Positions 2,251-23,990 of a stretch of DNA of 64,000 nt are shown here, piece after piece. Location of the stretch: assembly GCA_903844815.1 (NCBI GenBank), contig CAIMVD010000003.1, positions 1-64,000 on the forward strand. Direction: 5' to 3'. The position numbers and the translations under genes were made by a program. Origin of the DNA: an uncultured Bacteroidota bacterium (lineage in GTDB: Bacteria; Bacteroidota; Bacteroidia; Bacteroidales; VadinHA17). Below the pieces are notes generated by a model. The model had not been told where the DNA came from. It made no database searches and was given only the letters and a program-made list of their open reading frames with translations. Each line of letters begins with the position of its first letter. The first letter of the stretch is position 1.

Positions 2251-3966
2251 ATGAAAAAGATAGTGTGTTTTTTAACAGTTTTGTTTTTAATGAGTTACGG
2301 AAGTTTTTCTGTCATGGCTTCAGTAAACCCGGACGAAACTAACTCCGGTGATTCTATCAGGGTGGTATCTGCACCCGAATTATTGACTCTCTCGGAGAAG
2401 TGGGCGGCAGAATACAACAGGTTAAATCCTGACGTGAAAATCAAAATCGTTCAGGCTGATGGAAAAATTCCGGCAGCAACCTTTTTCAGGGAAGGTGTCA
2501 TTGGTTTCGTTCCTGATAATTATCTGGCCGCAGCTGAAATTGAATCAGCATGGAAAATGGTTGTCGGCAGGGATGTAATCGTCCCGGTAATGAACGCGAA
2601 TAATCCTTTTCTGGCTGAGATAAACGATCATGGTATTTCAGCAGGGTCATTGAAGATGTTTCTGAGCGATCCTGATTCACGTACCTGGGGTACCCTGCTC
2701 GGAGGTGTTCAGAAAGATAAGGCTTCATACTATATGTTAAATGATCCCTCGCTTACTTCTAACCTCTCTCTTTTCCTTGAAAAGGACATAGTAACAGAGG
2801 GAGGGACCGGCGTTGGCAATAGTGATGAACTAATTGCAGCCATCAGGAAGGACCCTTATGCTATAGGATTTTGCAGGCTGGCAAACATCCTCGATGCCGA
2901 CAATCAGGCTTTCACTGCAAATATCAGGCTGATACCTGTCGACAGGAATAATAACGGAACCCTCGACTACAATGAAAAAATATATGAAGATTTAGGTGCT
3001 TTTTCAAGAGGCATATGGATAGGGAAATATCCAAGGTCGCTGGTTACAAACATTTACTCTGTTTCAGGTGTACAGCCTACGGGTGTTAAGGAAACAGCTT
3101 TTCTGAAATGGGTCCTTTCCGACGGGCAGAAATTTCTTGGGAACAATGGCTTTTCTGACCTCCTTGTTGCCGAAAGACAAAGCGCCGCCGACAGGCTTTA
3201 TATAACCAGGGTTTCTCCTCTTCAGGCCGGCTCTGATTTCTCCTTGCTGAAAGCAGCAATGGCGATACTCGGACTGATAATTGTTGCAGGATTTATTGCT
3301 GATGCTGCCTTCAGGTATAACAGGCGCAAAAATCTTGTAATGAATGTAGTAACTACCTCGCCTCTTTCGTTTCCCGGAGAAAGCGGAATTAAGGTTCCTG
3401 CAGGACTCTATTTCGACAAGACCCACACCTGGGCATTCATGGAAAAGAGCGGAGTTGTTACAGTTGGAATAGACGACTTTCTTCAGCATGTTACAGGTCC
3501 GATCTCAAGAATCAGGATGAAGGGTGAAGGAAAGAAGATAAAAAAGGGAGAGCCTATCCTGTCTATCATCCAGAACGGGAAGCAGCTTCATCTTTATGCA
3601 CCTGTATCGGGAACTATTACTGAACAGAACTCGAGGCTGGAGGAGAATTCAACCCTGATAAATGAATCGCCCTACGGCGAGGGCTGGATTTATAAGATAG
3701 AACCATCGAACTGGATCAACGAAAATCAGCTTCTGTTTATGGCTGACAGGCAGAGACAATTTCTTAAAAAAGAATTTTTGAGGCTCAAGGATTTTCTTGC
3801 TGCTGCAGTGAATGGACAGGAAGGCAATCTTATACCGGTTGTGTTGCAGGACGGGGGAGAGATAAAAGACGGAATCCTTTCGGATATGGGGCCGGAGGTA
3901 TGGGAAGACTTTCAAACCAATTTTATTGATCCGTCAAGACAGGTCTGGTTTTACGAGATATTTTAA
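2251..3966 (+). CDS. PstS-like periplasmic substrate-binding domain fused via one TM helix to a GcvH-like (lipoyl-fold) domain
   Basis: Signal peptide; substrate-binding-like N-terminus (IRVVSAPELLTLSEKWAAEYNRLNPDVKIKIVQ); TM LLKAAMAILGLIIVAGFIADAA; GcvH-like THTWAFMEKSGVVTVGIDDFLQ...LYAPVSGTITEQNSRLEENSTLINESPYGEGWIYKI. Confidence 0.75.
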   Translation: MKKIVCFLTVLFLMSYGSFSVMASVNPDETNSGDSIRVVSAPELLTLSEKWAAEYNRLNPDVKIKIVQADGKIPAATFFREGVIGFVPDNYLAAAEIESAWKMVVGRDVIVPVMNANNPFLAEINDHGISAGSLKMFLSDPDSRTWGTLLGGVQKDKASYYMLNDPSLTSNLSLFLEKDIVTEGGTGVGNSDELIAAIRKDPYAIGFCRLANILDADNQAFTANIRLIPVDRNNNGTLDYNEKIYEDLGAFSRGIWIGKYPRSLVTNIYSVSGVQPTGVKETAFLKWVLSDGQKFLGNNGFSDLLVAERQSAADRLYITRVSPLQAGSDFSLLKAAMAILGLIIVAGFIADAAFRYNRRKNLVMNVVTTSPLSFPGESGIKVPAGLYFDKTHTWAFMEKSGVVTVGIDDFLQHVTGPISRIRMKGEGKKIKKGEPILSIIQNGKQLHLYAPVSGTITEQNSRLEENSTLINESPYGEGWIYKIEPSNWINENQLLFMADRQRQFLKKEFLRLKDFLAAAVNGQEGNLIPVVLQDGGEIKDGILSDMGPEVWEDFQTNFIDPSRQVWFYEIF

Positions 3967-3986: not shown

Positions 3987-4850
3987 ATGGATTTAAACAG
4001 AAGAACATTTTTCAGGGTCCTGGGTGCGACGGGGATCGCTGCGGCAACGGGACAACGCCTGGCAGCTGCTCCCCCCGGAGGAAGCCTTACCGAATTCTCC
4101 GGCATACTATATGATTCAACTCTTTGTGCAGGCTGTCAGAACTGCGAAGTCACGTGTGCAGAGGCAAACGGCCTGCCTGCCCCGACAGCGACGATGGAAG
4201 CAGGGGTAACCAGGAACACCGACGAAGCACACAGAACCGTTGTCAACACCTTTACAACTTCAAAGGGCGAAGCTTTTTGCAAAAAACAGTGCATGCATTG
4301 CAACGAACCTGCCTGTACTGCCGCCTGCCTGACTCAGGCTATGTACAAGACAAAGGAAGGGCCGGTTATCTGGAGAGGCGAAAAGTGCATGGGATGCCGT
4401 TATTGCATGGTCTCATGTCCTTTCGACATTCCTAAATTTGAGTATCACAGCGCAAATCCCAAAATTGAGAAATGCACAATGTGCTATGAGAAAATGATTG
4501 ATGGCAAAAAACCGGCATGCGTTGAAAACTGCCCTGCCGGAGCTCTTGTCGCGGGATCCAGAAGAGAGCTTATTAAAGAAGCGCGGAAAAGGATCGCTGC
4601 CAATCCCGACCAGTATGTTGATTATATCTATGGAGAACATGAGGCAGGCGGAACCGGAAGCCTGTATCTTTCGGGTGTCCCCTTTGATGAGATTGGTCTT
4701 AAAACTTCAATCCAGACAAAGTCGTATCCCGAACTTTCTAAGGGATTTCTTTACAGCGTTCCAACGATTTTTGTTCTCTGGCCAGCGCTGCTGCTGGGTC
4801 TGAAAGAAGCCACCAAAAATAATAACTCTAACTCTGAAGATCATGAATAG
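3987..4850 (+). CDS. Tat-exported 4Fe-4S ferredoxin-type electron-transfer subunit (HybA/NrfC/DmsB-like)
   Basis: Tat signal MDLNRRTFFRVLGATG; several Cys clusters (CAGCQNCEVTC, CKKQCMHCNEPAC, CMGCRYCMVSCP, CTMCYEKMIDGKKPACVENCP); C-terminal TM helix. Confidence 0.92.
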   Translation: MDLNRRTFFRVLGATGIAAATGQRLAAAPPGGSLTEFSGILYDSTLCAGCQNCEVTCAEANGLPAPTATMEAGVTRNTDEAHRTVVNTFTTSKGEAFCKKQCMHCNEPACTAACLTQAMYKTKEGPVIWRGEKCMGCRYCMVSCPFDIPKFEYHSANPKIEKCTMCYEKMIDGKKPACVENCPAGALVAGSRRELIKEARKRIAANPDQYVDYIYGEHEAGGTGSLYLSGVPFDEIGLKTSIQTKSYPELSKGFLYSVPTIFVLWPALLLGLKEATKNNNSNSEDHE

Positions 4851-6072
4851 CCCAGGTTATGCTCTTGCAAAAGACAATGACGGCAAACCCTTCTGGAAAT
4901 TTATTGCCGGGGAACTAAAGCCAAAAGGCAAGTTTCTTACGCCTTTCAATATCATATCGGTTCCCGTGATGATAGCCGGACTGATAATCATCGTAATCAG
5001 GTTCTGGAAGGGACTTGGAGAGGTTACGAACCTTACACAGGAGGTTCCATGGGGACTTTGGATAGGTTTTGATGTGGTCACAGGTGTTGCTTTTGCCGGC
5101 GGAGCCTATGTTCTGACCTTCATGGTCTATATCCTGAATATGAAGCAATACCACTCACTTGTCAGGGTTACTGTCCTTAACGGTTTCCTGGCATACGTCT
5201 TCTATGCAGGTGCTCTTTTGCTTGACCTGGGGCGGCCTTGGAATGTAATAAATCCTATAATAGGAAACAGTTTCGGTACCAGTTCTGTTTTATTTCTTGT
5301 TGCCTGGCATTTCCTCCTTTACATGATGGCTCAGCTTCTTGAATTCTCACCTGCCATCGCCGAATGGCTCGGCGCCAGGCGTGCCAGGAAAATCCTGTCG
5401 GGGATGACAGTCGGTGCGGTTATTTTCGGCATTACCCTTTCGACACTTCACCAGTCAGGGCTAGGGGCACTTTACCTGATGGCAAAGGATAAAATCCACC
5501 CGCTCTGGTATTCCGAATTCATACCGGTAATGTTCTTTGTATCCAGCATCTTCGCTGGCCTGTCGATGGTAATCTTTGAAGGATCGATCAGTCACAGAGT
5601 TTTCTTTGATCAGATAAGCGAAGAGAATCATAAAAAACAGAAGAACATAGTGAGGGGTCTGTCAAAGATCTGCGCCGTTGCCATGTTTGCCTATTTTACT
5701 TTGCAGGTGCTTGTTTTTATCCACGGCAAAAGGTGGGAATACCTCGACACGTCAATGGGATACTGGTACCTGCTTGAAATGATCGGCTTTGTCCTTCTTC
5801 CTATGACGCTTTTCTTTACAAGTTACAGGAAGAATAATATCACGCTGATTCGCGTTGCCGCAATAATTACAATGTTAGGCATAATTATGAACAGGCTTAA
5901 TGTGACAGTCATTGGTTTCAGGTGGGATCAGGCAATAAGGTATGTTCCTACATGGATGGAACTCGTTGTCACGCTCACAGTTATATTTACGGAAATATGG
6001 ATATTCCGGTGGGTGATTAACAGGATGCCTGTGCTTCGCGATTCGCCATCATGGGTAAAAGATGAGGAATAA
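4843..6072 (+). CDS. NrfD/PsrC/HybB-type polytopic quinone-interacting membrane subunit
   Basis: About 10 TM helices; GLGEVTNLTQEVPWGLWIGFDVVTGVAFAGGAYVLTF; LSTLHQSGLGALYL; overlaps the upstream gene by 8 nt. Confidence 0.9.
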   Translation: MNSPGYALAKDNDGKPFWKFIAGELKPKGKFLTPFNIISVPVMIAGLIIIVIRFWKGLGEVTNLTQEVPWGLWIGFDVVTGVAFAGGAYVLTFMVYILNMKQYHSLVRVTVLNGFLAYVFYAGALLLDLGRPWNVINPIIGNSFGTSSVLFLVAWHFLLYMMAQLLEFSPAIAEWLGARRARKILSGMTVGAVIFGITLSTLHQSGLGALYLMAKDKIHPLWYSEFIPVMFFVSSIFAGLSMVIFEGSISHRVFFDQISEENHKKQKNIVRGLSKICAVAMFAYFTLQVLVFIHGKRWEYLDTSMGYWYLLEMIGFVLLPMTLFFTSYRKNNITLIRVAAIITMLGIIMNRLNVTVIGFRWDQAIRYVPTWMELVVTLTVIFTEIWIFRWVINRMPVLRDSPSWVKDEE

Positions 6073-6121: not shown

Positions 6122-6829
6122 ATGGAAGGTTTCAGCTATAATAACATTTTTGACACCAAGGGAATAGAGTACCTTGTAATAATTGCTTTTCTGCTTTCGA
6201 TTATTCCTTTCTGGATAATTATTAATAAACCCGGAATAGTAAGCAGAATAAAGAAGTCGCTGGGTATATTTTCTGCAAGCACCCTTCGTGTTCCTGCAGG
6301 GTTATTTTACAGCAGGAATCACACCTGGGCTCATCTTGAAAAATCAGGTACGGCAAGGGTCGGTCTCGACGATTTTATCCTTCATGTTACCGGTGAGGTC
6401 AGTCTGGGCAGCCTGCTGAAGCCGGGTGATACAATAAAAAAGGGAGAACTCCTTGCATCAATCGACCATAACGGGAAACTACTGAATATTTTCTCTCCTG
6501 TTACAGGAACAATAACAGGCACAAATACGGGACTCTGTCAGGAGCCGGATGCCTTAATGGAAGATCCTTACGGAAAAGGGTGGATTTATAAGATTAAACC
6601 AACTCAATGGATCGAAGAGACAAGCAAATATTATCTTGCTGATGATGCGGCGGCCTGGGCAAAAAGGGAAGTTGAACGTGTAAAAGAATTTGTCGCGGTA
6701 TCTTCGGCTAAATATTCCACTAACAGTAAGTTTGCTGTCCTCCAGGATGGGGGTGAGTTATTCGACAATCCCCTCTCGGAGCTGCCTGATGAGGTCTGGC
6801 ATGATTTCCAGAAAACATTTTTAAGTTAA
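6122..6829 (+). CDS. Membrane-anchored GcvH-like protein (paralog of the C-terminal half of 2251..3966)
   Basis: N-terminal TM helix, then NHTWAHLEKSGTARVGLDDFILHVTGEV...IFSPVTGTITGTN...EDPYGKGWIYKIKP. Confidence 0.8.
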   Translation: MEGFSYNNIFDTKGIEYLVIIAFLLSIIPFWIIINKPGIVSRIKKSLGIFSASTLRVPAGLFYSRNHTWAHLEKSGTARVGLDDFILHVTGEVSLGSLLKPGDTIKKGELLASIDHNGKLLNIFSPVTGTITGTNTGLCQEPDALMEDPYGKGWIYKIKPTQWIEETSKYYLADDAAAWAKREVERVKEFVAVSSAKYSTNSKFAVLQDGGELFDNPLSELPDEVWHDFQKTFLS

Positions 6830-6919: not shown

Positions 6920-8596
6920 ATGTCACCGGGAAAAAATGAAGCTAAAACATCTGCAGGAAACAGGATTAGAAAATTCATAGATACGTATCTCAGGTTCCGT
7001 TCTTCAATATACAGCAGGGTAGTATACATCATAACGTTGTCATCAGTAATCCTGTTTGTTTCGTTCGGAGTAATCTTCAAGTCAGTTTACGAGCAGAATC
7101 TAAACACTGTCATTCGTCAGAACGGAAATAATATCGGCTCAATTGTTGAAGGATCATTATATCATTCAATGCTGGCTAATGATAAGAGCACACTTCAGAG
7201 TACGCTCGACGTCATCAATACTATGTCGGGAATAGATGATGTCAATATGTATGATTCCAACGACAGCCTTGTTTATACATCATTTACCGGTGATATGGAA
7301 CAGCACAGCAATCCTGATTGCCTCAGCTGTCACAGGAATATCAGTGAAATGTTTCCCCTGAAGGAAAAATCGTACCGTATTATGGAGGTAAAAACAGAAT
7401 GCAGTATGGACAGCAATGATAATACTCACCGGCATTTGCTTATCAGGTCTCCCATTCTGAATGAAAAATCGTGCTATACAAGTTCGTGCCATGCACACCA
7501 GGCAAGCGATGTTGTGCTTGGTTCATTAGTAATAAAGATGCCCCTTGCTGATCTTGATGCTGCTGTGAAGAAATCATCGGCCAAATACTATCTTCTGGCT
7601 GCTCTTATTACACTAGCCCTGATGGCAGTCCTGATCTTATTTACAAGTGAAAAGATCAAAAGACCGTTAAACGAGATTATTAAGGCAAGTTTAGCCGTTT
7701 CAGGCGGGGATAAGGATACAAGGCTGGAAATAAAACCTAACCAGCTTAATGATATGCGAATGGTGTCGGTAGCTTTTAATGATATGCTCGATAATCTTCA
7801 GTCGGCAAACCTGGAACTGCAGAACTGGTCAAAACAGCTCGAATATAAGGTACAGAAGAAGTCGGAAGAGCTGGGTGCTGCTCAAAATGAACTTATCCAC
7901 ATTGAGAGAATAGCTTCGCTCGGGAAGTTATCATCATCCGTTGCTCATGAGATCAATAATCCTCTTTCGGGAATCCTTGTTTATACAAAACTGATTCACA
8001 AGCAGTTAAGTAATCCTGATATGGATGCAGCCAAGAAGGAGACTGTGCTTAAGCATCTGAAGCTTATCGAGAACGAAACCAAGAGGTGCGGCGATATAGT
8101 TAAAGGATTACTCGATTTTTCCAGAAAAGATCAGGAAAACTTTGAATCAAAGCATCTGCATAAAATTCTTCAGGAGACCTATGAACTTATGACCCATTCG
8201 GTCAAAATAGCCAATATCAGCTTCCTTTCGGACCTTTCAGCCCAGGATGATCTTATTTTCTGCAGCCCTAACCAGATAAAACAGGCTTGCGTTGCATTAA
8301 TTGTGAATGCATCTGAAGCAGTCCGGGAGCGTGGAGAAATAACAATTTCAACTAAAAATCCCGATCCGGGGAATGTCAGGATTGATATTACGGATAATGG
8401 GATAGGCATCCAGACCGGAGATATTTCACATATCTTCCAGCCTTTTTTCTCAACCAAGCATGATGCTTCAGGGATCGGTCTGGGACTTGCAATTGTTCAT
8501 GGCATTGTTGAAAGCCACAACGGAAGGATCGATGTAAAATCCGAACCCGGGAAGGGAACAACCATGTCAATTACATTACCTCTAGTAAAGACTTAA
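6920..8596 (+). CDS. Membrane sensor histidine kinase with heme-c-like motifs in the extracytoplasmic sensor region
   Basis: Two TM segments, CLSCH and CYTSSCH between them, HAMP-like region, VAHEINNPLSGILVYTKL H-box, IQTGDISHIFQPFFSTKHDASGIGLGLAIVHGIVESHNG ATPase. Confidence 0.92.
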   Translation: MSPGKNEAKTSAGNRIRKFIDTYLRFRSSIYSRVVYIITLSSVILFVSFGVIFKSVYEQNLNTVIRQNGNNIGSIVEGSLYHSMLANDKSTLQSTLDVINTMSGIDDVNMYDSNDSLVYTSFTGDMEQHSNPDCLSCHRNISEMFPLKEKSYRIMEVKTECSMDSNDNTHRHLLIRSPILNEKSCYTSSCHAHQASDVVLGSLVIKMPLADLDAAVKKSSAKYYLLAALITLALMAVLILFTSEKIKRPLNEIIKASLAVSGGDKDTRLEIKPNQLNDMRMVSVAFNDMLDNLQSANLELQNWSKQLEYKVQKKSEELGAAQNELIHIERIASLGKLSSSVAHEINNPLSGILVYTKLIHKQLSNPDMDAAKKETVLKHLKLIENETKRCGDIVKGLLDFSRKDQENFESKHLHKILQETYELMTHSVKIANISFLSDLSAQDDLIFCSPNQIKQACVALIVNASEAVRERGEITISTKNPDPGNVRIDITDNGIGIQTGDISHIFQPFFSTKHDASGIGLGLAIVHGIVESHNGRIDVKSEPGKGTTMSITLPLVKT

Positions 8597-8608: not shown

Positions 8609-9949
8609 ATGGCAAAAAAGATCTCAATACTGATTGTTGATGATGAAGTATCGGTGAGGGACTCTCTCTACAACTGGTTTATAGAGGACGGGTATCATGT
8701 TGCATGCGCCGAAAATGCCAAGACAGCCTTGTTGATAATTGAAAATGAGGCTTTCGACATTGTTCTTGCGGATATTAAAATGCCTGGTATGGACGGACTG
8801 GAAATGCTCCGGAGGATCAAGCTCCTGAAATCAGATGCAATCGTAATTGTGATGACAGCATTTGCCACTGTCGATACTGCTGTTCAGGCATTGAAAGATG
8901 GAGCATTTGATTATATAACAAAGCCTTTTGACCCTGATGATCTTTCGCACCTTATCCGTAATGCTTCCAGGCAGATCTCCCTTACTGAAGAAAATGAGAA
9001 TCTGAAGCAAAAAGTGGTTTCGCTTGAAAATGTAGCAGACCTTATTGGTAACAGTGAGGTAATGAAGAGGGTTCTGAAGGAGATCGAGAGTGTAGCCCAA
9101 TCTAATTCATCCGTAGTGATAACGGGTGAAAGCGGTACTGGCAAAGAGCTGGTGGCCAGGGCAATACACTCCAATTCGAACAGGCGGTTTTTTCCGCTGG
9201 TAAGTGTTCATTGCGGGGCTTTATCGGAGAGCCTTCTGGAGAGCGAACTGTTCGGTCACGAGAAAGGAGCTTTTACCGGTGCAATGTATAACCGGAAGGG
9301 GCGTTTTGAGATGGCCGATAACGGGACAATTTTCCTCGATGAGATTGCGACAATATCGACCAAGATGCAGATCGATCTTTTGCGGGTTCTGGAGTCCAAG
9401 AGTTTTGTCAGGGTCGGAGGAAATAAGGAGATCTTATCCGACTTCAGGGTAATATGTGCCACAAACAGGGACCTAAAGAGCATGGTTGAAAACGGGTCTT
9501 TCCGTGAGGATCTTTTTTACAGGCTGAACGTTGTCAATATAAATGTACCTCCGTTGCGAGAGCGTACTGAGGATATCCCGCTTCTGGTAGATTATTTTAT
9601 TAAGAAGTACTGTCTCTCAATGAACAGGCCTGCAATTACAATCGAACAGTCAGCCCTTAGCCGGCTTACGGAATTCAGCTTTCCGGGAAATGTCAGGGAA
9701 CTGGAGAATATGATTGAAAGGGCCATAGTGGTTGGCAACGGCAGGAAGATTACCCTTAAGGATCTTCCGCTTGAAAAATCAATGATTAGCAGTTCAATAG
9801 AGAGCCTTGACGACCTTGAAAAAACACATATCAGGAATATCCTGAATAAGTATGCGTGGAATATCTCACGTGCTGCCCGCGCATTGAAAGTTGACAGGGT
9901 GACACTTTATAACAAAATATCGAAATACGGACTGAAACCTTCTGAGTGA
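8609..9949 (+). CDS. NtrC-family sigma-54-dependent response regulator
   Basis: Receiver (ILIVDDEVSVRDSL, DIVLADIKMPGMDG), AAA+ with GESGTGKELVARAIH and GAFTGA, Fis-type HTH. Confidence 0.95.
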   Translation: MAKKISILIVDDEVSVRDSLYNWFIEDGYHVACAENAKTALLIIENEAFDIVLADIKMPGMDGLEMLRRIKLLKSDAIVIVMTAFATVDTAVQALKDGAFDYITKPFDPDDLSHLIRNASRQISLTEENENLKQKVVSLENVADLIGNSEVMKRVLKEIESVAQSNSSVVITGESGTGKELVARAIHSNSNRRFFPLVSVHCGALSESLLESELFGHEKGAFTGAMYNRKGRFEMADNGTIFLDEIATISTKMQIDLLRVLESKSFVRVGGNKEILSDFRVICATNRDLKSMVENGSFREDLFYRLNVVNINVPPLRERTEDIPLLVDYFIKKYCLSMNRPAITIEQSALSRLTEFSFPGNVRELENMIERAIVVGNGRKITLKDLPLEKSMISSSIESLDDLEKTHIRNILNKYAWNISRAARALKVDRVTLYNKISKYGLKPSE

Positions 9950-10488
9950 AAAGCCGGCAGAATATCGCACTGATCTCCTTCGGGTACTTTGACAATGGTT
10001 TTCTCAAGGATGTCGCTGAGGCAGTAAAAAACGAATTCTACTGTGAAGTGAGCATGAAGGAGGGCCATCTCGATTTGAGTGAGTTCTATGATCCGGTAAG
10101 GAGGCAATATAATGGCAGCAGACTCTTATGCCATGTGGAGGAAAATTTCGCAACGGACCTGTCAAAAACAATAGGTCTTTTCAGCGTCGATCTTTTTATT
10201 CCCATTCTCACCTACATATTCGGACAGGCCTTCCTTAACGGAAGGTCGGGGATTGCATCGGATTACCGGTTAAGCAACGTACGATACGGAATAACTGCCG
10301 ACGAAAAGCTTTTGCTGGAGCGTTTCAGGAAGGAAGTTATTCATGAACTGGGTCACACATTCGGGTTGATTCACTGTCATGTCCCCACCTGTGTCATGCG
10401 GTCGGGTACCTATGTTGAAGATATTGACCAGAAAGAAGAATCGTTTTGTTCTGCATGTAGGGTTGCACTAAATGCTATTCTGGATTGA
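9946..10488 (+). CDS. amzA: Archaemetzincin-type zinc metalloprotease
   Basis: HELGHTFGLIHCHVPTCVM...CSACR matches HEXXHXXGX3CX4CXM...CXXC; GTG start overlaps the regulator stop. Confidence 0.87.
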   Translation: MKSRQNIALISFGYFDNGFLKDVAEAVKNEFYCEVSMKEGHLDLSEFYDPVRRQYNGSRLLCHVEENFATDLSKTIGLFSVDLFIPILTYIFGQAFLNGRSGIASDYRLSNVRYGITADEKLLLERFRKEVIHELGHTFGLIHCHVPTCVMRSGTYVEDIDQKEESFCSACRVALNAILD

Positions 10489-19757: not shown

Positions 19758-22700
19758 TTGCAAATGAAGGTTGAATTATTATTTGAGACAAGTTGGGAAG
19801 TATGCAATAAAATTGGTGGCATACATACGGTAATATCCACAAAAGCACTTAACCTGGTAAATGAACTTGGAGATAATTATATACTCATCGGACCTGACGT
19901 CTGGAGGGAAGTAGAAACCAATCCTGAGTTTATCGAAGATGAGTTACTGTTTGCCGAATGGAAAAACAGGGCTGTGATGGATGGTCTGAGGGTAAAAACC
20001 GGCAGATGGAACATTGCCGGCAGGCCATTAGTGATCCTGATAGATTATACTCCTTATTTCGGACAACAGAATGAAATCTTTGCCGGATTCTGGGAGACAT
20101 ATAAACTCGACAGCATTTCGGGCCAGTGGGATTACGTAGAACCAGCCCTTTTCGGGTATGCTGCAGGAAAACTTATTGAAAGTTTCTCGGCTTTTTATCA
20201 TCCTCAGAGCAGTACCGTTGCCCAATTCCATGAATGGATGACTGGAACAGGGATTTTATACCTGAAAAAAACAGCACCCTGGGTGGGGACAGCATTTACG
20301 ACACATGCAACAGTTCTCGGCAGATGTATTGCAGGGAATAATCGTCCCCTTTACGGCAATATGGAAGAATATAATCCGGGACAGATTTCACGGGAGTTTA
20401 ATGTGGTGGCAAAGCAGTCTCTCGAAAAAACCGCGGCTACTGAAGCTGATGTCTTTACCACTGTCAGCGAGATTACTTCGCGTGAGTGCAGCCATTTCCT
20501 GGGAAAAGATGTCGATGTAGTGACACCAAACGGGTTTGAAGATTCCTTCGTGCCTTCTTCTGACAGGTTTGATGAATGCCGGCAAAAGGCAAGATCGAAA
20601 CTGAAAACTGTTGCTGAAGCCGTGCTTGGCTATTCATTGGCCGACGATTGCATTTTTATTGTAAACAGCGGAAGATATGAATTCAGAAATAAGGGAATTG
20701 ATCTTTTTATCGATTCGCTTGGTGAATTAAATAAAAATGAAAGCCTTGAAAAAGAATGTGTTGCCTTTATCCTGATACCTGCCTATCACAAGGGCCCCCG
20801 TCAGGATATTTCCGACATTCTGTATAACGGCGGACCGGAAAACGGAGGAGACAGGTATCTCACTCACAACCTTCATTACCCCGAAACCGATTTGATTCTG
20901 AACCGGATTGCTGTAAACAGCCTCTACAACAGAATTAAATCGAAGGCTAAGGTAATCTTTGTGCCATCATACCTTAACGGAAATGACGGCATCTTCAATA
21001 TACCCTATTTCGATCTTTTAATCGGATTTGATCTTTCCGTTTTTCCGTCATATTATGAACCTTGGGGATATACCCCTCTCGAAAGTCTTGTGTTCTCAAT
21101 ACCTACTGTTACTACCTCCCTTTCAGGATTCGGGCTGTGGGTTAAGAATTATTATCCTGATCATGGTAAAGGGATCACGATTGTCGACAGAGACGATTCT
21201 AACGAACGGGAGGTAATCGCTGAAATTACAAAAAAAATAGCAGATTTTATTGAACTTGATCCGGCAGGTGTTGAAGAAACAAGAATTAAGGCGCATGATG
21301 TCTCGAGAATAGCAGAGTGGCGCACTCTGGTAAGCCATTATTACAAAGCATATGATGAAGCTCTTCTTAACAGCGCTGACAGGCGTTCTGAACCAAGAGA
21401 GTTTTTGAGGATGATTGAGACGCCCGGAATGCATATCCGTAAGCCGCATCAGGTTCCTGTATGGAAGGATTTGTACATTCAAAGCGATGTGCCTGAGCGC
21501 CTTAGCTCACTCAAGGAGCTTGCAAATAACCTATGGTGGGCATGGACAACTCATGCTGAAGCTTTGTTCAGAAGAATGGATCCGAGCGTATGGGAAAGTG
21601 TGAAACATAATCCAAAGCTTTTGCTCGAGAAGATCGATTATAAGCGTCTTCTCGTTCTTGAGGACGATGATGAATTTATTGCTGACCTTGATGAAATTTA
21701 TCGCCAGTTTAAAAATTATATAAATCGTCCCGATAATCCTGAGACTCCTTCGATAGGCTACTTTAGCATGGAGTTCGGAATCCATCCCTGTCTTAAGATC
21801 TATTCCGGCGGCCTTGGAATTCTGGCGGGTGATTATCTTAAAGAAGCCAGCGACTCAAATTTTAATATCACAGGGGTAGGACTTCTCTATCGCTTTGGCT
21901 ATTTTAAACAGAAGATCGGACCAAGGGGAGAGCAGCTTTCATTGTATGAGGCTGAAGATTTTTCAAGACTTCCGATTCTGCCTGTCAAGGATGAAAACGG
22001 AAACCATTTGTCGGTAAGTGTTGCCTGGCCAGGAAGGGCTGTGAAAGTAAGGGTTTGGGAGGCTATGGTTGGGAAAGTCCGTCTTGTGCTTCTCGATACC
22101 GATATCGAAGAAAACCTGCCCGAGGACCGTTCGGTTACACATCATCTTTACGGAGGTGACAATGAAAACAGGTTACGACAGGAACTCATACTCGGTATCG
22201 GAGGAATAAGGGCCCTTGAAGCCATGAATATCAAGCCCGATATTTATCACAGTAATGAAGGGCATTCGGCTTTTATAAGCCTCGAGAGGCTAAGAATCCT
22301 TATAAACGATAATCACCTTACATTCAGTCAGGCAACAGAAGCGGTCAGGTCATCAACACTTTTTACAACCCATACACCTGTTCCGGCAGGACATGACGCC
22401 TTTGAAGAGGATCTTCTCAGAAAGTATATATCGCACTATCACAGCCGCCTGGCAATAAGCTGGGATGAGCTTATGGCTCTTGGACGATGTGCAGGCGATT
22501 ATGACAGGAAATTCAATATGAGCTACCTCGCAACCCGAATGTCGCAGGAGGTAAATGGTGTCAGTAAACTTCATGGGGAAGTAAGTCAGGCCATGTTTAA
22601 TAAGCTTTGGCCCGGATATCTAAAAGAGGAGCTCTTTATAGGCTATGTCACCAACGGAGTTCATTTCCCCACCTGGGCTGCACCGGAATGGAAAGAGATC

Positions 22701-23990
22701 TTCAGGGAGATTGCAGGAACACCTGAATTCGATCAGACAGACAGAAAAATCTGGGAAAAACTTTACACAATTGACGATAAAAAGTTCTACGAGGTAAAGA
22801 AAGAGCTGAAGAAGAAACTATTCAATAATATAAGGAAACAGCTTCAGTCGGATATGATGGATAAGCACGTCAGTCCAAGGACGCTTCTTAATATCAGCAG
22901 CCATCTTGATGAAAAGGCTCTTACTATTGGTTTTGCTAGAAGGTTTGCCACTTATAAGCGAGCCGCACTTCTTTTCAGGGATATTGACAGGCTTGAACGG
23001 ATCGTAAATGACCCGGTGCGTCCTGTACAGTTTATCTATGCCGGGAAAGCCCATCCCAATGATGGCGGCGGACAGGATCTTATTAAGAGAATATTTGAAA
23101 TATCACAGATGCCCCAATTCGCAGGAAAGGTGCTCTTCCTTGAGAATTACGATATAGAAATGGCAAAATATCTTGTAAGAGGTGTGGATATTTGGCTTAA
23201 TACGCCAACAAGACCCATGGAAGCGTCAGGAACAAGCGGCGAAAAAGCCGTTATGAATGGCACTATCCATTTCAGCGTCCTTGACGGATGGTGGGTTGAA
23301 GGGTACCGTGCCTTCGCCGGCTGGGCTTTGCCTAAGAAACGGGCTTTCGAAAACCCCGAACTTCAGGATGATGTCGATGCCGTAACAATTTATAATATGC
23401 TTGAATTTGAGATTATTCCCGCATATTATTCATCAAATGAAAAAGGAATTCCCGTGGAGTGGATTAGCCTTGTCAAAAATACAATGGTGAAAATTGCTCC
23501 CGAATTTACAATGAAACGTCAGATCGACGACTATTTTTCGAAGTACTATACAAAACTCTTCTCGCGTAATAAATACCTTATTGATAACAGTTTTGAAAAG
23601 GCTAAAGAACTCGCCGCATGGAAAAACACAATGAGGGAGGAATGGGATAATATTGAAGTTCTCGATTACAGTTTTGAGAAAGCAGGATCAGAAAACATTT
23701 ATCGCTCAGGGCACGACTATGTGGCAGAGATAGCGTTGGATGTCAAGAAGATTCCCAAAGAGAATGTAGGGGTTGAGTTTATTATAACTCACCTTAAGAA
23801 AAACGGGGAACGGGAGTTTGTTGACAGTGAAGAGTTCAGGCTTGTAAGCTGTAAGAACGGGAAATGCCTCTACCGGGCGAATCTTGTTCCCGAAAAGGCA
23901 GGCTCTTTCTCATACGGTATTCGTATCTACCCTAAACATAAAGATCTTCCTCATAAGCAGGATTTCTACCTGCTTCGCTGGATTGACTAA
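19758..23990 (+). CDS. Fusion of GT3-type glycogen synthase and alpha-glucan (glycogen) phosphorylase
   Basis: N-half FETSWEVCNKIGGIHTVISTKA and YYEPWGYTPLESLVFSIPTVTTSLSGFG; C-half YFSMEFGIHPCLKIYSGGLGILAGDYLKEASD and NTPTRPMEASGTSGEKAVMNG. Confidence 0.9.
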   Translation: MQMKVELLFETSWEVCNKIGGIHTVISTKALNLVNELGDNYILIGPDVWREVETNPEFIEDELLFAEWKNRAVMDGLRVKTGRWNIAGRPLVILIDYTPYFGQQNEIFAGFWETYKLDSISGQWDYVEPALFGYAAGKLIESFSAFYHPQSSTVAQFHEWMTGTGILYLKKTAPWVGTAFTTHATVLGRCIAGNNRPLYGNMEEYNPGQISREFNVVAKQSLEKTAATEADVFTTVSEITSRECSHFLGKDVDVVTPNGFEDSFVPSSDRFDECRQKARSKLKTVAEAVLGYSLADDCIFIVNSGRYEFRNKGIDLFIDSLGELNKNESLEKECVAFILIPAYHKGPRQDISDILYNGGPENGGDRYLTHNLHYPETDLILNRIAVNSLYNRIKSKAKVIFVPSYLNGNDGIFNIPYFDLLIGFDLSVFPSYYEPWGYTPLESLVFSIPTVTTSLSGFGLWVKNYYPDHGKGITIVDRDDSNEREVIAEITKKIADFIELDPAGVEETRIKAHDVSRIAEWRTLVSHYYKAYDEALLNSADRRSEPREFLRMIETPGMHIRKPHQVPVWKDLYIQSDVPERLSSLKELANNLWWAWTTHAEALFRRMDPSVWESVKHNPKLLLEKIDYKRLLVLEDDDEFIADLDEIYRQFKNYINRPDNPETPSIGYFSMEFGIHPCLKIYSGGLGILAGDYLKEASDSNFNITGVGLLYRFGYFKQKIGPRGEQLSLYEAEDFSRLPILPVKDENGNHLSVSVAWPGRAVKVRVWEAMVGKVRLVLLDTDIEENLPEDRSVTHHLYGGDNENRLRQELILGIGGIRALEAMNIKPDIYHSNEGHSAFISLERLRILINDNHLTFSQATEAVRSSTLFTTHTPVPAGHDAFEEDLLRKYISHYHSRLAISWDELMALGRCAGDYDRKFNMSYLATRMSQEVNGVSKLHGEVSQAMFNKLWPGYLKEELFIGYVTNGVHFPTWAAPEWKEIFREIAGTPEFDQTDRKIWEKLYTIDDKKFYEVKKELKKKLFNNIRKQLQSDMMDKHVSPRTLLNISSHLDEKALTIGFARRFATYKRAALLFRDIDRLERIVNDPVRPVQFIYAGKAHPNDGGGQDLIKRIFEISQMPQFAGKVLFLENYDIEMAKYLVRGVDIWLNTPTRPMEASGTSGEKAVMNGTIHFSVLDGWWVEGYRAFAGWALPKKRAFENPELQDDVDAVTIYNMLEFEIIPAYYSSNEKGIPVEWISLVKNTMVKIAPEFTMKRQIDDYFSKYYTKLFSRNKYLIDNSFEKAKELAAWKNTMREEWDNIEVLDYSFEKAGSENIYRSGHDYVAEIALDVKKIPKENVGVEFIITHLKKNGEREFVDSEEFRLVSCKNGKCLYRANLVPEKAGSFSYGIRIYPKHKDLPHKQDFYLLRWID

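Follow-up and report, generated by a model that had tools for sequence, protein, structure and literature searches.

The first gene of a conserved operon from an uncultured Bacteroidales bacterium encodes a protein in which a domain resembling the glycine cleavage H protein (GcvH) is joined to a periplasmic substrate-binding-like domain, which raises the question of what such a GcvH-like domain does in this protein and whether it carries lipoate. We analysed a 64,000-nucleotide stretch (the window; GenBank assembly GCA_903844815.1, contig CAIMVD010000003.1, positions 1 to 64,000), in which the gene occupies positions 2251–3966. This gene and the others of the operon lie on the forward strand. 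A sequence-only reading had proposed that the lipoyl-lysine of the GcvH-like domain is replaced by glycine with a lysine one residue later, and had offered two alternatives, a non-lipoylated scaffold and a shifted modification site.

The open reading frame encodes 571 residues. Its assignment as a fusion of a periplasmic binding protein-like (PBP) domain, a transmembrane (TM) helix and a GcvH domain is based on the reading frame, Pfam matches, full-length homologues, the conserved operon and a full-length model. A signal peptide is predicted approximately at residues 1–25 (2251–2325), where the model has a hydrophobic N-terminal helix (residues 2–17). It is followed by a degenerate PstS-like periplasmic domain at about residues 30–315 (2338–3195), a TM helix at about residues 330–361 (3238–3333) with positively charged residues on its C-terminal side, the GcvH-fold domain at residues 386–507 (3406–3771), and a conserved C-terminal extension (3772–3966) composed of a helix and an LQDGGEL...VWEDFQ motif, which the alignments reveal also in the second GcvH-like protein of the operon. 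The GcvH-fold domain scores 100.7 bits with the Pfam GCV_H family (PF01597; cut-off 22.2). We modeled the GcvH part (200 residues) with AlphaFold2 from 49 aligned rows at a mean pLDDT of 85.9, and comparison with GcvH crystal structures by Foldseek gave target TM-scores of 0.93–0.95 and r.m.s.d. values of 1.2–1.4 Å. The Pfam and fold scores rule out a chance match. The full-length model (pLDDT 77.4) comprises the PBP domain, a long helix at residues 330–361 and the GcvH domain, and its best matches in the PDB are phosphate-binding proteins and GcvH. The strong GcvH signature noticed in the sequence was thus borne out (TM-score 0.94), as was the fusion itself, which is one reading frame with about 90 homologues of the same kind. 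The range originally given for the GcvH-like domain, 3388–3966, does contain it and also spans the C-terminal extension.

Nine relatives from the same order match the fusion over almost its full length, and a scan of GTDB genomes found relatives encoded at 229 loci. We examined the best 80 of these, all of which are Bacteroidota records, Prolixibacteraceae among them. Of the records in our set, one bears the label Draconibacterium orientale and one Mariniphaga sp.; both are metagenome-assembled genomes. The fusion is a genuine protein that is widely conserved in Bacteroidota; its homologues of the same architecture and the near-constant synteny rule out an assembly or frameshift artefact. It had been called unexpected, which holds for its novelty as a sequence but not for its rarity, as the number of loci makes it common in the phylum. 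No family model in Pfam or NCBIfam fits the fusion above its cut-off beyond the broad GCV_H domain. In the open-access literature, with most subscription journals outside the coverage, no paper links GcvH to NrfD, response regulators or multihaem cytochromes; a published description of the fusion may exist.

In canonical GcvH, the lipoyl-lysine is located at the tip of a hairpin. Alignments, scoring and the model place Gly443 of the fusion at this position and Lys444 one residue later (3577–3582). The distance from the glycine of KGE to the tyrosine of YAPV is 16 residues in the fusion and in canonical GcvH alike. When the fusion is aligned by MAFFT with 11 canonical GcvH sequences of related genomes, the hairpin stays ungapped and Gly443 falls on the lipoyl-lysine; canonical GcvH in the same genomes reads EAVKT or EAVKA, and the fusions and the second GcvH-like protein (GcvH2) read xxGKx in the same ungapped register. 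Ungapped alignments were also obtained with phmmer for the fusion against 2ka7 and for GcvH2 (6122–6829) against 1onl and 3a8i, whereas the fusion against 1onl puts lysine on lysine at the cost of two compensating one-residue gaps. We prefer the ungapped register because the model of the domain (in domain numbering) contains a strand at 64–70, a two-residue turn N71-G72 and a strand at 73–78 that starts with K73. Structure prediction had been suggested as a check on whether the lysine of NGK sits at the hairpin tip; in the model it instead opens the following strand.

Conservation, another suggested check, shows the Gly-Lys pair in all 87 fusions scored and in three further rows missed by the scoring pattern. 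Where functional GcvH has the lysine of its ESVKA tip, all 87 fusions have glycine, in the same register in the model. Among 70 GcvH2 sequences, the pair is GK in 61, GR in three, GN in three, DK in two and NK in one; the lipoyl position is thus glycine in 67 and Asp or Asn in the remainder, and the lysine at +1, invariant in the fusions, gives way to Arg or Asn in six. Of about 39 GcvH-like domains in other classes, none has a lysine at the lipoyl position, and their +1 residue is variable (K, R, N, T or other). Because this residue varies in GcvH2 and in the other classes, Lys444 is no universal modification site of the group. From the alignments and the model, the GcvH-fold domain of the fusion is best read as a non-lipoylated module. 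The proposed replacement of the lipoyl-lysine is confirmed; of the two alternatives, the non-lipoylated scaffold is well supported by the glycines of the fusions and GcvH2, and the shifted site only poorly.

With GcvH proper (PF01597; TIGR00527), the domain shares the fold, the hairpin length and the HTW, VGIDDF and PYGEGW-type motifs. Unlike GcvH, the fusion lacks a lysine at the lipoyl position, is membrane-anchored and has the C-terminal extension, and it scores 77.9 bits against the TIGR00527 equivalog cut-off of 115.85. NCBI sets two GcvH relatives, TIGR03077 (not_gcvH) and NF045810 (GcvH_rel_desulf), apart from the glycine cleavage GcvH, and the fusion falls far below both (42.6 bits vs. 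a cut-off of 144.05 and 43.1 bits vs. 150, respectively). The nearest conceptual precedent is LbpA of the sHdr sulfur oxidation pathway, likewise a GcvH-like protein in a redox pathway beyond glycine cleavage, in which the lipoyl-lysine is strictly conserved and two cysteines are conserved with some archaeal exceptions (PMC6067878). Unlike LbpA, the fusion has glycine at the lysine position, and no lipoate ligase gene is present at its locus; genes of the LplA family reside on other contigs or, in the genome G009, on the same contig at a distance of about 87 kb. In place of the hdr-like and lplA genes near LbpA, the neighbours of the fusion are HybA, HybB, GcvH2, a kinase, a regulator and an archaemetzincin.

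The N-terminal half of the fusion had been described as a periplasmic substrate-binding domain. The fold stands: PBP_like_2 matches residues 30–291 with 23.1 bits, under the Pfam cut-off of 27, this part matches PstS-like genes in related genomes, and the best matches of the model are phosphate-binding proteins (target TM-score up to 0.75). The ligand loops, however, are degenerate. In the same genomes, true PstS-like proteins retain the GAFALYP, GGAGKG and SDACGAAE loops, whereas these motifs are absent from the fusion in the alignments and most of the corresponding positions are poorly conserved among fusions. The fusion also differs from PstS in being tethered through a TM helix to a GcvH domain and in the absence of pstCAB from the operon. 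What it has in common with Bacteroidota PstS, besides the overall fold, is an EF-hand-like loop, DRNNNGTLDYNE (residues 231–242, 2941–2976), in which D231, N233, N235, G236, D239 and E242 are 96–100% identical in 89 rows. A similar loop occurs in the true PstS paralogues of related genomes. Judged by its residues, the PBP domain is likely no phosphate receptor and probably binds calcium.

In nearly all intact loci, the operon has the gene order fusion, HybA, HybB, GcvH2, haem-motif kinase, NtrC-type regulator and archaemetzincin. In the window, the fusion gene is followed by a gene for a HybA/HmcB-like Fe-S protein with a twin-arginine signal (3987–4850), which scores 312 bits with HmcB (cut-off 420) and 227 bits with HybA (cut-off 263) and matches the Pfam TAT_signal family weakly. 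The next gene (4843–6072) encodes a HybB/HmcC-like membrane protein of the NrfD family (HmcC 413.6 bits, cut-off 550; Pfam NrfD 56.6 bits). GcvH2, the second membrane-anchored GcvH-like protein, has Gly-Lys at the tip and was assigned by PF01597 (74.4 bits) and alignments. The sensor histidine kinase (6920–8596; Pfam HAMP, HisKA and HATPase_c) has two haem motifs in its sensor region, CxxCH and CX4CH, found in 65 and 64 of 65 homologues, respectively, and is followed by an NtrC-type sigma-54 response regulator (8609–9949; Pfam Response_reg, Sigma54_activat and HTH_8). The archaemetzincin-family gene (9946–10488), identified by NF033823 (151 bits, cut-off 145) and synteny, is a near-constant last gene. 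No sigma-54 promoter was found upstream of the fusion gene in the window, and 77 loci show no enrichment over shuffles.

The HmcB/HmcC pair of the Hmc complex and the HybA/HybB pair of hydrogenase-2 likewise combine an Fe-S protein bearing a Tat signal with an NrfD-type membrane protein (PMC8076601). Unlike these complexes, the operon contains no gene for a catalytic subunit, for a large cytochrome like the 16-haem HmcA of the Hmc complex or for any other multihaem cytochrome, and its two proteins score below all equivalog cut-offs. A review of NrfD proteins places HybB mostly in Proteobacteria and does not list Bacteroidetes for it (PMC8076601). In distant relatives, a tetrahaem cytochrome of 176–179 residues (Cytochrome_C554 family) adjoins the operon (L024, 13450–13983; L133, 2527–3057; L149, 7071–7610) and may be its redox partner.

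Related GcvH-like domains extend to other classes, with matches at E ≤ 1e-25 in 51 of 395 genomes of the phylum. The 18 loci that we read in this wider group include two kinds. The first encodes TM-GcvH proteins, which flank HybA-HybB, together with the kinase and the regulator. The second encodes HybA, HybB, a 13-haem cytochrome, the kinase, a receiver-GcvH protein and a TM-receiver-GcvH protein, followed in some cases by 16- and 19-haem cytochromes. Operons of the second kind are present at L139, L140, L141, L142 and L143, with a 5-haem instead of the 13-haem cytochrome at L142; in some of them, genes for the 16- and 19-haem cytochromes come next, together with one for a cytochrome b561-like protein. 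In the tree of GcvH domains, canonical GcvH stands on one side of a branch with a support of 100/99.9, and the fusions cluster with GcvH2 (95/84).

These relatives also bear on the topology. Of 90 fusions, 84 have more Lys and Arg residues after the TM helix than before it, as do 69 of 70 GcvH2 proteins; since the excess follows the helix, the PBP domain would face outward and the GcvH domains inward. In the other classes, the GcvH-like domain is preceded by a receiver domain whose phosphoacceptor residues are intact, either alone or with a TM helix in front; a position behind a receiver domain, which is necessarily cytoplasmic, also argues for a cytoplasmic GcvH-like domain. The sequences and the model suggest a single-pass membrane protein with the PstS-like part outside and the GcvH-fold part inside.

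HybA, HybB and GcvH2 are jointly absent from six loci (L028, L053, L084, L086, L093 and L118), all from metagenome-assembled genomes. The fusion directly adjoins the kinase in all six, and the regulator comes next in all five whose contig continues. Whole-genome searches found HybB in none of the six genomes, with strong matches in five of five controls, and found only the fusion and canonical GcvH as members of the GcvH group in the six. A simple assembly gap is disfavoured because the fusion and kinase genes are adjacent on one contig. In a tree of 84 fusions built by a quick method, the six loci need five changes, and the three genes were probably lost repeatedly as a block, about five times, with the fusion kept beside the kinase.

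We propose that the operon consists of two linked units. HybA-HybB-GcvH2 would form an HmcB/HmcC-like membrane electron-transfer module, in which electrons probably pass, in an inferred direction, between menaquinone and a periplasmic partner, e.g., a multihaem cytochrome. The fusion, the sensor kinase with its two c-type haem motifs and the NtrC-type regulator would form the second unit. In the cytoplasm, the GcvH-like domain would most likely serve for docking or signal relay: it would connect the redox or ligand state of the periplasm with the kinase, and also with the redox module in genomes that have one, and use the Gly-Lys hairpin as a contact instead of a cofactor site. We give an even chance to the view that the fusion is a membrane protein whose non-lipoylated cytoplasmic GcvH module docks onto the two-component system or relays redox state to it. 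This role is favoured because the fusion outlives HybA-HybB-GcvH2 beside the kinase and because related GcvH domains are built into receiver proteins. Against it, the GcvH domains of the window are not themselves parts of a kinase or receiver, the invariant lysine of the fusions is unaccounted for, and adjacency in an operon is no proof of physical contact.

More tentatively, a lipoyl-free GcvH fold could be a recurrent relay from NrfD complexes and periplasmic sensors to haem-based two-component systems in several classes of Bacteroidota. If true, the relay would give these bacteria a new means of linking electron flow in the membrane to the control of genes. The label glycine cleavage H protein is easily given to GcvH-like genes, and it would be misleading for a large group in which the lipoyl-lysine is missing and which occurs together with quinone-linked redox modules and haem-motif kinases.

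The main rival to docking or relay is a structural role at the NrfD subunit, in which both GcvH-like proteins would cap the cytoplasmic face of HybB/NrfD and the PstS-like part would dock HybA or a cytochrome outside, without any signalling. The near-constant co-occurrence of the fusion with HybA-HybB agrees with such a role, as do the TM-GcvH proteins beside HybA-HybB in other classes; with the fusion and kinase staying together in six genomes without HybB, and with related GcvH domains fused to receivers, we regard it as rather unlikely. Quite improbable is a third explanation, in which a group 1 or 2 [NiFe] hydrogenase with its genes elsewhere would use HybA-HybB as its membrane part and have the GcvH proteins as accessories. 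The NiFe large subunit of hydrogenase-2 (HybOABC) is not at the locus; a full-length one is encoded on another contig in the genome of the window (G000) and in G009. This and the HybA/HybB-like sequences speak for the explanation, but no full-length match is found in eight other fusion-bearing genomes, and both HybA and HybB score under the Hyb-family cut-offs. With the large subunit in just two of ten fusion-bearing genomes, the partnership was rejected as a general rule.

Shifting the lysine of an E2 lipoyl domain by one residue abolishes lipoylation. The least probable explanation is that Lys444 carries lipoate or another acyl group and the domain acts as a shuttle for electrons or acyl groups, like GcvH and LbpA: the invariant Gly-Lys pair and the ligase-family genes of these genomes are on its side, but the modelled lysine lies off the tip, it is replaced in some GcvH2 proteins and unconserved in other classes, the locus has no ligase gene, and the residue three before either candidate position is I/V or Q/R in most fusions, with no acidic residue among the common ones, whereas ESVKA has Glu.

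As for glycine cleavage itself, gcvT is split across two contigs (C73 and C109) in G000 and searches of this genome yielded no canonical gcvH, most likely because of an assembly gap. Elsewhere in the window, positions 19758–23990 encode a 1410-residue protein combining a glycogen synthase (Glycogen_syn) with a glucan phosphorylase part containing DUF3417, located in a glycogen-metabolism gene cluster.
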